From Ilumatobacter coccineus (lineage in GTDB: Bacteria; Actinomycetota; Acidimicrobiia; Acidimicrobiales; Ilumatobacteraceae), in NCBI GenBank assembly GCA_002748455.1, contig PDSL01000019.1, forward strand, positions 1 through 57,371: 57,371 nucleotides of DNA. The letters are read 5' to 3'. Below the pieces are notes generated by a model. That model was not told the origin of the DNA and did not search any database. It was given only the letters and a program-made list of their open reading frames with translations. Both the position numbers and the translations under genes were made by a program. Below are positions 36,718-39,940 of this stretch, in pieces (position 1 is the first letter of the stretch; each line of letters starts with the position of its first letter).

Positions 36718-36913
36718 GCCTCGTAGCGTCGTGGTGGCGGTCGAGTGATCGCCACTCGCGCGATCGCTTGAGAAATTTTTTTGGTCGGCGTCACGATTGG
36801 GGTCGTGTTCTCGTCTTTACCTCAGTGCGACCACACCTGTGTACCCAACGAGATGAGAAGGGTATAGGTTTGGTGAAGTTGCTATGGGGCTTCATACAGC
36901 GCGCTTTGATTCG

Positions 36914-38488
36914 ATGGACACGGAGGCGCTCTTGGCGCGTGTCCGAGACGGCGACATGGACGCCTATGGCGAGATCTATCGTCGCTATGAGCGATTTGCC
37001 CACCAGGTTGCACGCCGGCGTTCGCGGCGTCACTCCGAGGACCTCGTGTCGGAATCCTTCCGTCGCGTGCTCACGGCGATCACTCGGGGCGCCGGTCCCC
37101 GTCAGGCATTTGGGCCCTACCTTGCCACCACTATCCGGTCTGTCGCAGCAGGATTGGCTGGCCCATTTCAGGAGGTTGAACTCGACGTGTCGGCACACCT
37201 GACGGACGACCACGGTGATGTCGACCCTCGAGTCGCTACAGCGTTTGCCAGCCTTCCCGAGGCCTGGCAGAACGCCTTGTGGTACAGCGATGTCGAAGGT
37301 ATGTCGCCGCGCCATGTGGCTCCCTTGATGGGGCTGCCCTCAGCGAACGCCTTTTCAGCCTTGCGTAAACGGGCCCGAGCCGGTCTGCGATCGGCTTATC
37401 TCGTCCAGGTGGTGAACGATGCTTGCAATGATGAGGTTCGTGAACAGCTCGCGCTCTTGGTCACCGGAGCGTTGGATCCCGATCAGCTCGATGCGATCGT
37501 CGATCGTCATCTCGATGAATGCGATCGCTGTCGGGCGGTGGCCTGGCGGATCGAGAAGGTGTCGGGCAAACGGTTGGGCATGGTGCTCGCCCCAGCCCTG
37601 ATCGCCTTTCACGGATTTGCCGCTGATGGTGCGTTGGTGCCCGTTGGTCTTGGCGGCAGCGCTATCGCTGGCTGGTTCCAGCGGCGCCGATCCTCGCGTG
37701 CGGGGTTCATGGTGTTTTGGGGTTCGGCAGCGGTCGCTCTCGCTCTCGGGGTGTGGGCGGTGATCGCCATCGTTCTGCCTGGTGTCAGCCAGTCCACATC
37801 CGGCTCTGCTGATGGTGGAGGAGGGGCTGGGGCTAGCGGTACCCTCGCACCCGCTGGCTCTGACGATGGCGCCGATCCCGCGGAGAACGATGAACCGAAC
37901 AACCTGGTTCCCTTGGTGACGTTGGCTAACCCGACCACCACGGCGGCGTTGCCATCGACAACCACGTCGACCACCTTGCCGCCAGCGCCCCAGGCGGTGG
38001 CGCCACCATCGGGTGCGACACCTCGACCGACACCACGACCGACACCTCGTCCTGCTCCTCGGACTACCGCGGTGGTGACAACCACCACCACGCTTGCCCC
38101 GACAACGACATCGACGACGACCACTACGTCAACGACGACGACCACATCGTCAACGACAACCACGACGACAGTTCCGATTGGTGAGCCTCTGGCTGCCGAT
38201 CTTGTCGTCGTCCGTGATGAGGTGATCATCGAGCACGGCCAACTGGTTCGAGTCTCCGAGTTCCACTTCATCGGGCTGACCGGTGAGCCGGGCCGGATGG
38301 TGTTTGACCCTGGGGTGCTAGCGGTCGAATCCGTTCCTGATGTCGGGTGCACCACCGAGGAGTGCGTGATCGATGGCACCTTGACGGGTGACTTCCAAGT
38401 GATCTTTAGGACCACTCCGGGGAGTGTTCACGATGTCCGAGTGCTCGACCATCTCGATCGGGAGTGGAAGAGCTATCACCTCGAGTGA
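36914..38488 (+). CDS. ECF-type sigma factor fused to zinc-finger-like segment, TM helix, Thr-rich linker and C-terminal extracytoplasmic domain
   Basis: DAYGEIYRRYERFAHQVARR...SEDLVSESFRRVL; FASLPEAWQNALWY; HLDECDRC (Hx3Cx2C); TM ~37715-37785; Thr-rich linker. Confidence 0.85.
   Translation: MDTEALLARVRDGDMDAYGEIYRRYERFAHQVARRRSRRHSEDLVSESFRRVLTAITRGAGPRQAFGPYLATTIRSVAAGLAGPFQEVELDVSAHLTDDHGDVDPRVATAFASLPEAWQNALWYSDVEGMSPRHVAPLMGLPSANAFSALRKRARAGLRSAYLVQVVNDACNDEVREQLALLVTGALDPDQLDAIVDRHLDECDRCRAVAWRIEKVSGKRLGMVLAPALIAFHGFAADGALVPVGLGGSAIAGWFQRRRSSRAGFMVFWGSAAVALALGVWAVIAIVLPGVSQSTSGSADGGGGAGASGTLAPAGSDDGADPAENDEPNNLVPLVTLANPTTTAALPSTTTSTTLPPAPQAVAPPSGATPRPTPRPTPRPAPRTTAVVTTTTTLAPTTTSTTTTTSTTTTTSSTTTTTTVPIGEPLAADLVVVRDEVIIEHGQLVRVSEFHFIGLTGEPGRMVFDPGVLAVESVPDVGCTTEECVIDGTLTGDFQVIFRTTPGSVHDVRVLDHLDREWKSYHLE
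37930..38178 (+). repeat. Low-complexity Thr/Pro-rich coding repeat (ACN/CCN codons)
   Basis: TPRPTPRPTPRPAPRTTAVVTTTTTLAPTTTSTTTTTSTTTTTSSTTTTTTV. Confidence 0.9.
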
Positions 38489-38627
38489 TCCTCGGGCACA
38501 TGCCTAGGTCGTGCCGATATCGATGTCGCCATTCGGCGTGACGATATCGACGATCTCATCGTCAGATGGGGAGGAAGCACCAGGGTGCGATGCACGTTTG
38601 TGCACACTGTGAGAATATTCTTACCTT

Positions 38628-38737
38628 GGCGTCACGATCTCGGATCTGGGTGATCTGTTCTTAGTAACGACGTTGACCACATCGTCGTTTACCGCTCCGG
38701 TGGGAAGCAGAGCGCTTCCGACCACCCACCGGAGCGG
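38628..38737 (+). repeat. Hairpin repeat unit A
   Basis: GTCACGAT-N20-TCTTA, then ACGACG/CGTCGT and CCGCTCCGGTGGG/CCCACCGGAGCGG. Confidence 0.9.
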
Positions 38738-38836
38738 AAGCCAGTCATCGTTGATCGAGTCCACCATGTCTCGGAATCGTCCATCACTGCGCTGTCACCA
38801 GCGCTGGGAGGGGCACGATGAGTTGGTCTTGGCGAT

Positions 38837-38864
38837 CTGGGGTCAGAGCTTGCTCTGACCCCAG
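38837..38864. terminator. Perfect 13-bp hairpin with TT between the arms (terminator-like, no T tract)
   Basis: CTGGGGTCAGAGC-TT-GCTCTGACCCCAG. Confidence 0.55.
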
Positions 38865-38964
38865 CGTCACGATTTGGGATTCTGACGGTCTTTTCTTATT
38901 GGCGACGTTGACCACATCGTCGTTCGCCGCTCCGGTGGGACGTATCCAGTCCCCACCGGAGCGG
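38863..38964 (+). repeat. Hairpin repeat unit B
   Basis: GTCACGAT-N20-TCTTA, GCGACG/CGTCGT, CCGCTCCGGTGGG/CCCACCGGAGCGG with a different loop. Confidence 0.9.
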
Positions 38965-39094
38965 ATGCCGGTCACTCCCGGTGGATCGGGTTCATCCCAG
39001 TGCAGTGGTCGAGATGCTCGATTCGGTGGCGATTGCCAGGGACCACTCAGGGAAGCTTGGACGTTTGTGCATCCAGTGAAATTTCTTTCAGTCT

Positions 39095-39204
39095 GGCGTC
39101 ACGATCTGTCGATATTGTGATCTCTTCTTATTGACGACGTTGGCCACATCGTCGTTTACCGCTCCGGTGGGAAGCAGAGAGCTTCCGACCACTCACCGGA
39201 GCGG
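39095..39204 (+). repeat. Hairpin repeat unit C
   Basis: GTCACGAT-N20-TCTTA, ACGACG/CGTCGT, CCGCTCCGGTG/CACCGGAGCGG. Confidence 0.9.
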
Positions 39205-39226
39205 GTGCCAGTCCTCGTTGATCGAA

Positions 39227-39940
39227 TCAGCTCACCGCCACACGGCAAGCGAGACGCATCATCTTGTCGACGCCCGCCTTGAGCTCTTCGTCGCTGATAC
39301 GGGTGGTTTCGCCGGTGACCTCCAAGAGGTCGGAGACCGTCATCATCGCCAGGGCTTCAACCCCCTTGATCGCGGCGATCGTGTACATCATCGCTGCTTC
39401 CATATCGACACCGATATGGCCGGTGCGCTTCCAACGGGCGAAGGTGTTGGGATCAGGATCGTAGAACACTCCGCTGGTGATGATCGGGCCGACATGAACG
39501 GTCGATCCGCTTTCCCGGCTGAGCTGGGCAGCGGTTTCGGCGAGTTCAAAGGTGGCGGTAGGAGCGTAGGAGCTCATCTGAGCGACGCGCAGGGGCGTGG
39601 TGTCTTCAGCGGTGGCCGAGATCCCGAGCACGGTGTCACCCATCGACATCCCATCCTGGAGGGCACCGCAGGTGCCGACCCGGATGAGTCGCTTGGCGCC
39701 CAACATGATGAGCTCTTCGAACACGATTCCCGATGATGGGGCTCCCATGCCGGTTGTTTGGACGCTGATGGGTGAGCCCTCAAACGTGCCGGTGAAGCCC
39801 AACATGCCGCGCTCCTCATTGACGCAGCGATAGCCAGGATCGAAGAAGGTTTCGGCAATATAGGCGGCCCGGCGAGGATCTCCGGGACACAGAACAGCAG
39901 GGGCGTAGTCGCCATTTTCGGCACGTATATGAATCGGCAT
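39227..39940 (-). CDS. deoD: Purine-nucleoside phosphorylase (DeoD type)
   Basis: MPIHIRAENGDYAPAVLCPGDPRRAAYIAETFF, RVGTCGALQDGMSMGD, GVDMEAAMMYTIAA. Confidence 0.95.
   Translation of the reverse strand: MPIHIRAENGDYAPAVLCPGDPRRAAYIAETFFDPGYRCVNEERGMLGFTGTFEGSPISVQTTGMGAPSSGIVFEELIMLGAKRLIRVGTCGALQDGMSMGDTVLGISATAEDTTPLRVAQMSSYAPTATFELAETAAQLSRESGSTVHVGPIITSGVFYDPDPNTFARWKRTGHIGVDMEAAMMYTIAAIKGVEALAMMTVSDLLEVTGETTRISDEELKAGVDKMMRLACRVAVS

Follow-up and report, generated by a model that had tools for sequence, protein, structure and literature searches.

Three tandem hairpin units between an ECF sigma factor gene and deoD in Ilumatobacter coccineus: a candidate sigma-dependent small RNA module

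Results

The window (the whole stretch of DNA analysed, 57,371 nt) carries a gene for an ECF sigma factor and a gene for a deoD-type purine nucleoside phosphorylase, separated by a gap of 738 bp. The gap holds three units, A (38629-38747), B (38864-38974) and C (39096-39214), all on the + strand. The features of the locus are as follows.

36763..36787, + strand: AT-rich tract (64% AT), UP-element-like, which may overlap an ilvC terminator
36788..36816, + strand: predicted autoregulatory ECF promoter of the sigma gene, with -35 GCGTCACGAT and -10 CGTC(T)
36884..38488, + strand: ECF sigma factor, 534 aa, from Pfam/NCBIfam profiles
38604..38628, + strand: AT-rich tract upstream of unit A
38629..38638, + strand: putative -35 box of unit A, GCGTCACGAT
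38654..38663, + strand: predicted -10/start-site block of unit A, TCTGTTCTTA
38666..38689, + strand: hairpin 1 of unit A
38692..38737, + strand: strong hairpin 2 of unit A (13 bp)
38738..38747, + strand: conserved tail of unit A, AAGCCAGTCA
38837..38864, no strand: perfect palindrome CTGGGGTCAGAGC-TT-GCTCTGACCCCAG, abutting the unit B box
38864..38873, + strand: putative -35 box of unit B
38889..38898, + strand: predicted -10/start-site block of unit B, TCTTTTCTTA
38901..38924, + strand: hairpin 1 of unit B
38927..38964, + strand: strong hairpin 2 of unit B, with a 12-nt loop
38965..38974, + strand: conserved tail of unit B, ATGCCGGTCA
39071..39095, + strand: AT-rich tract upstream of unit C
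39096..39105, + strand: putative -35 box of unit C
39121..39130, + strand: predicted -10/start-site block of unit C, TCTCTTCTTA
39133..39156, + strand: hairpin 1 of unit C
39159..39204, no strand: strong hairpin 2 of unit C, beginning about 25 nt past the deoD stop codon (- strand)
39205..39214, + strand: tail of unit C, GTGCCAGTCC, identical to the end of the sigma-deoD gap of the relative G001
39227..39940, - strand: deoD-type purine nucleoside phosphorylase, convergent with the sigma gene and the units

Sigma70 region 2 of the sigma protein passes its Pfam cutoff, while region 4 (14.7 vs. a cutoff of 25.7) and a zf-HC2 zinc finger (20.4 vs. 22.2) score below theirs. A hydrophobic transmembrane segment and a Thr/Pro-rich stretch, both read by eye, precede a C-terminal domain. 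As candidate for the class of this sigma factor we considered ECF41; the protein has a zinc-finger-like domain and a transmembrane segment and no SnoaL match in Pfam/NCBIfam, and because the SnoaL domain is absent it was not filed there. By its domain layout it can be read as an ECF48/52/53-like sigma factor with a fused zinc-finger-like domain and membrane extension. With ECF48, ECF52, ECF53 and SCO4117 it would have in common region 2, a weak region 4 and a zinc-finger-like domain (PMC5826349, PMC8999054), and also the hydrophobic segment, the Thr/Pro-rich extension and a proposed autoregulation, the likeness being one of layout and not of ECF group models.

Units A, B and C are built alike: GCGTCACGAT is followed by 20 nt, TCTTA, a 24-nt hairpin 1 and a 13-bp GC hairpin 2. 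The pattern GTCACGAT-N20-TCTTA has three exact matches in the window (38631, 38866 and 39098, all on the + strand) and none in 100 shuffles, and the units fold with z values of about -4.5 to -6.1, such that no shuffled sequence folds equally well. The elements described in an earlier sequence-only reading of this DNA (box, spacing, TCTTA, hairpin 1 and strong hairpin 2) are all present, as are the 12-nt loop of unit B and the nested GAAGC/GCTTC of A and C. That reading took the units to be separated by unrelated sequence, which is true only for B because the homology of A and C runs beyond the unit, over about 171 nt in total with 38 nt upstream and about 14 nt downstream. Its variable spacer of 20 nt has to be shortened as well: the first 15 nt drift freely, but the last 5 nt belong to a conserved TCTnTTCTTA block. 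The box copy upstream of the sigma gene, at 36788, was absent from its description. Since the copies differ from one another by 15-24% in pairwise comparison, they are not a simple assembly duplicate. Beside unit B, the palindrome at 38837-38864, with 13-bp arms and a single copy in the window, takes the place of the AT-rich tract of A and C.

Between the units, the box is identical at 10 of 10 positions in every pair, the TCTnTTCTTA block at 9 of 10, hairpin 1 at 22 of 24, the arms of hairpin 2 at 12-13 of 13 and the conserved tail 3' of hairpin 2, which contains GCC(A/G)GTC, at 7-8 of 10, whereas the 15 nt after the box agree at 5-7 positions (33-47%) and the hairpin 2 loop of B agrees with that of A or C at 5 of 12. 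As the spacer and the B loop have drifted this far, the boxes and stems look as if they were held by selection. Small peptides as products of the units (in A and C, frames TTSSFTAPVGS...) are scarcely credible: open frames do overlap the A and C hairpins and the differences between A and C are, by eye, partly synonymous, but a change of 8 nt in loop length shifts the frame in B, and no ribosome-binding site was seen before the TTG. All 22 base pairs are kept across the units and three of them vary, the changes being A-U/G-U or G-C/G-U on the + strand and A-C mismatches if read on the - strand. Because these changes are compatible with G-U pairing on the + strand only, they are weak evidence for a + strand RNA, as against a cruciform in the DNA or an RNA read from the minus strand. 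The pair-by-pair comparison of the three units gave no two-sided (compensatory) change, so that the covariation proposed earlier as a check of the hairpins was not found among A, B and C.

The 57-kb window has four copies of GCGTCACGA and no more, always on the + strand: in A, B and C and at 36788, 96 nt before the ATG of the sigma gene. The chance expectation for a 10-mer is about 0.36 in the window (both strands) and 0.003 in the two gaps. The best reading of this box is as the -35 element of the sigma factor's own promoter. TCT lies 15 nt after the box in the units, and a candidate -10 is loosely conserved across the four sites (CGTC, GATC, GGTC, CCTC); we consider an element within TCTnTTCTTA, 15-17 nt from the box, a more likely -10 than TCTTA alone. 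An AT-rich tract (64% AT, vs. 38% for the window) precedes the box at the sigma gene, A and C and is absent at B. Before the sigma gene the box reads CGTCACG-N16-CGTC; the ECF41 promoter, TGTCACA-N16-CGTC (PMC3426412), has the same GTCAC core at -35 and, relative to this site, exactly the same N16 to CGTC. The own genome has a fifth copy of the box, on C34, which is directed into a gene on the minus strand at its 3' end and was judged to be chance.

The closest named relatives of deoD are from Ilumatobacter, and in most members of the genus with a readable flank deoD is directly convergent with ilvC. In the relative G001, a sigma ortholog (57% identical) adjoins deoD as in the studied genome. 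Both sigma upstream regions contain CGGCGTCACGA, at -98 and -95 from the aligned start, a 10-mer shared at matching distance being found in 0.4% of shuffled pairs (p = 0.004); one further 11-mer is common to them at unrelated distances. The only stretches of at least 10 nt shared by the two sigma-deoD gaps are GCGTCACGAT(C) and GTGCCAGTCC, that is, the two ends of the unit, and one 10-mer common to two gaps of such size is not rare in itself. The unit in the G001 gap consists of the box, 20 nt, TCATT, 3 nt, a 6-bp hairpin 1 (GAACAC/GTGTTC) and a strong hairpin 2 (GATGTGCG..CGCACATC); its spacing is that of A, B and C, its stem sequences are entirely different, and it folds moderately better than shuffles (z -1.96). 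G001 is the one other species in which the arrangement of box and two hairpins was found. Downstream of the box in the G001 gap (L060:2251-2423), a 25-nt motif, CGTCCCAACAGCGGACAGGACGACG, is also present three times in diverged form, which suggests that tandem growth may have occurred there too.

We searched 224 family genomes for a composite of AT-rich tract and box, AWWTT-N4-11-GGCGTCACGA. Of the 10 genus genomes, it occurs only in the studied genome, G000 (three sites: sigma, A and C), and in G001 (one site), which are the two with a close sigma ortholog; 17 other family genomes carry background matches, and the restriction within the genus is a hint and not a test, because it is based on four sites that were already known when the pattern was chosen. 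The upstream regions of more distant ECF homologues show no significant enrichment of GTCAC (7 seen vs. 4.5 expected, p = 0.15), so the motif is not to be generalised beyond the G000/G001 pair. Elsewhere in G001 (C1:2549634-2549662; L281), a box, GGCGTCACGATTCGGG...TCT, is found together with an AT-rich tract 83 nt ahead of the gene for a secreted DUF11 protein of 525 aa, possibly a further target of the sigma factor; the other box copies of G001 mostly overlap open frames in a rough check.

An identical box at four places also resembles the regulon of a transcription factor. On this view another DNA-binding regulator, and not the sigma factor, would occupy the boxes, as genuine binding sites or as decoys, and the units would be regulatory DNA or serve for titration. 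We consider this improbable in view of the second block at a fixed, ECF-like spacing, the AT-rich tract before the sigma gene, A and C, the hairpin changes that are G-U-compatible on one strand only, and the co-occurrence with the sigma ortholog.

No copies of the unit beyond the three in the gap were found in the own assembly (1.25 Mb, 74% complete), no match to it in plasmids, and no match in Rfam at or above the gathering threshold of any family. The exact long pattern was not found in viral contigs, and phages gave only marginal chance matches to the units, in tape-measure genes. The exact core pattern was absent from the GTDB species genomes, a set from which records of the own genome were possibly left out. 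A covariance model gave only weak matches in 224 family genomes, those inspected being coding or poorly aligned. Homologues were also sought by DNA search in relatives, with the hairpin 1 pattern allowing mismatches, and with GTCACGAT-N-TTCTTA; the matches were rejected, as those inspected fell within coding genes, for instance at an HNH-endonuclease-like motif (DVDHIV) and in the ORF of a large membrane protein. The near-copies in tandem, the strong palindromes in an intergenic gap and the separate palindrome abutting B would suit a selfish element of REP/MITE type caught in tandem; this is nevertheless very improbable and largely refuted by these searches, by the conservation of promoter-like boxes and by the syntenic counterpart in G001. 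The new repeat element entertained by the sequence-only reading is not supported, the genome having no dispersed copies, and the outcome which that reading had named against its RNA family, dispersed hits with no conservation, did not occur. ATGTGGYCAA, the complement of the hairpin 1 loop, has no other match in the window, which therefore yielded no target.

In several Ilumatobacter relatives a strong hairpin lies about 10-40 nt downstream of deoD, and hairpin 2 of unit C occupies the same place; because of these relatives, we think that it probably also terminates the deoD mRNA. No U-tract follows hairpin 2 on either strand, which makes termination there uncertain. The hairpins could more generally be bidirectional terminators or stabilisers of mRNA 3' ends between the convergent sigma gene and deoD, amplified in tandem, with the boxes as passengers or minor promoters. 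This seems unlikely to us, though it merits weighing: besides the missing U-tract, a single hairpin suffices in several relatives, and neither the invariant 10-mer box and TCTnTTCTTA upstream of hairpin 1 in all three units, nor the box before the sigma gene in two species, nor the conserved small hairpin 1 is explained by it.

Discussion

A family of small RNAs with promoters of their own is, from these comparisons, the best-supported reading of the three units, which can now be tied to a likely regulator. We think it reasonably probable that the locus is a regulatory module in which the ECF sigma factor drives its own gene and three structured non-coding RNAs of about 80-90 nt. We infer sigma recognition, transcription, RNA ends, targets and function as follows. 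GCGTCACGA (-35) with a TCT-containing -10 about 15-17 nt downstream would be the promoter recognised by the adjacent sigma factor, one copy driving the sigma gene (autoregulation) and three tandem copies each driving a short RNA. A signal would free the sigma domain from the fused zinc-finger/membrane part, such that all three RNAs would be made together. The 5' end of each RNA would fall within TTCTTA or directly behind it, at hairpin 1 or shortly before, so that this hairpin would become a 5' stem-loop; the 3' end would lie at or after hairpin 2. The RNAs may act in trans on mRNAs or on a protein, like the enterobacterial sigma-E-dependent RNAs. The promoter plus structured transcript suggested earlier is favoured by the box before an ECF sigma gene in two species and by the recurrence of the layout with different stems in the relative, and the lack of two-sided covariation counts against it. 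More tentatively, and with rather low confidence, we propose that the sigma factor and its RNAs form a self-contained module, in which a single-protein, membrane-anchored ECF sigma has the adjacent RNA bank as its main dedicated output, fast-evolving in sequence and conserved in box and two-hairpin layout.

The sRNAs that depend on sigma-E in enterobacteria are encoded at a distance from rpoE and have U-tract terminators. In contrast, the three near-identical copies described here adjoin the sigma gene and are followed by no U-tract. Sigma-dependent sRNA circuits are, to our knowledge, little known in this phylum. In common with MicA, RybB and MicL (PMC1804206) and with FoxJ of Fusobacterium (PMC11005410), the units would give short structured RNAs driven by an envelope-responsive ECF sigma, a dependence that is proposed in our case. 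As would be expected of ECF-sigma-dependent sRNAs, the units share their putative promoter motif with the sigma upstream region and with G001. The units likewise resemble the multicopy sibling sRNAs LhrC1-5 of Listeria, Qrr and NgncR_162/163 (PMC4132741, PMC4211561, PMC9973317) in being repeated copies of a putative small structured RNA, and as in those families more than one similar unit is present, each combining a promoter-like part with a structured one. LhrC depends on a two-component system (PMC4132741), whereas here the regulator is presumed to be an ECF sigma with a copy of the box before its own gene, in a different phylum.

Release by proteolysis is expected for the ECF48/52/53 layout (PMC8999054), and autoregulation is proposed for SCO4117 (PMC5826349). 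The motif proposed there for SCO4117, CSGYN-17-SRHA, is unlike GCGTCACGA, and adjacent sRNAs are not mentioned for SCO4117-type sigmas in the excerpts of these two sources (PMC5826349, PMC8999054). For the ECF sigma class with a fused zinc finger/membrane extension, whose promoter is unsettled (PMC5826349), we offer the concrete candidate motif GCGTCACGA-N15-17-TCT. Our proposal would mean that such a sigma factor acts partly via small RNAs, and units that keep box and two-hairpin layout despite changed stems would mark a class of RNA genes missed by sequence search and by Rfam.

A different structured element was found in the deoD 3' gap of three Ilumatobacter relatives, between ilvC or the sigma gene and deoD (L056:2235-2398 and L058:2236-2399 for G004 and G005, L060:2534-2691 for G001; minus strand, with an intrinsic terminator). 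From its 5' end it has the hairpin GAACACTTTCCCTGGTGTTC, then a variable one and last a GC hairpin with TTTT(T) behind it; five pairs are changed on both sides across the three sequences, its promoter-like sequence (TGCTAGAAC or TGCTACAAA) is unlike the box, and Rfam gave no match at threshold. As this second element also lies in the gap, the genus seems to use the 3' side of deoD as a site for small structured RNA genes. A further ilvC-deoD gap (L145; deoD 86% identical) possibly has one more small RNA gene, with TTGCAT-N17-TAGAAA as its promoter-like sequence and GGTGTCGGGC..GCCCGGCACC as its terminal hairpin.
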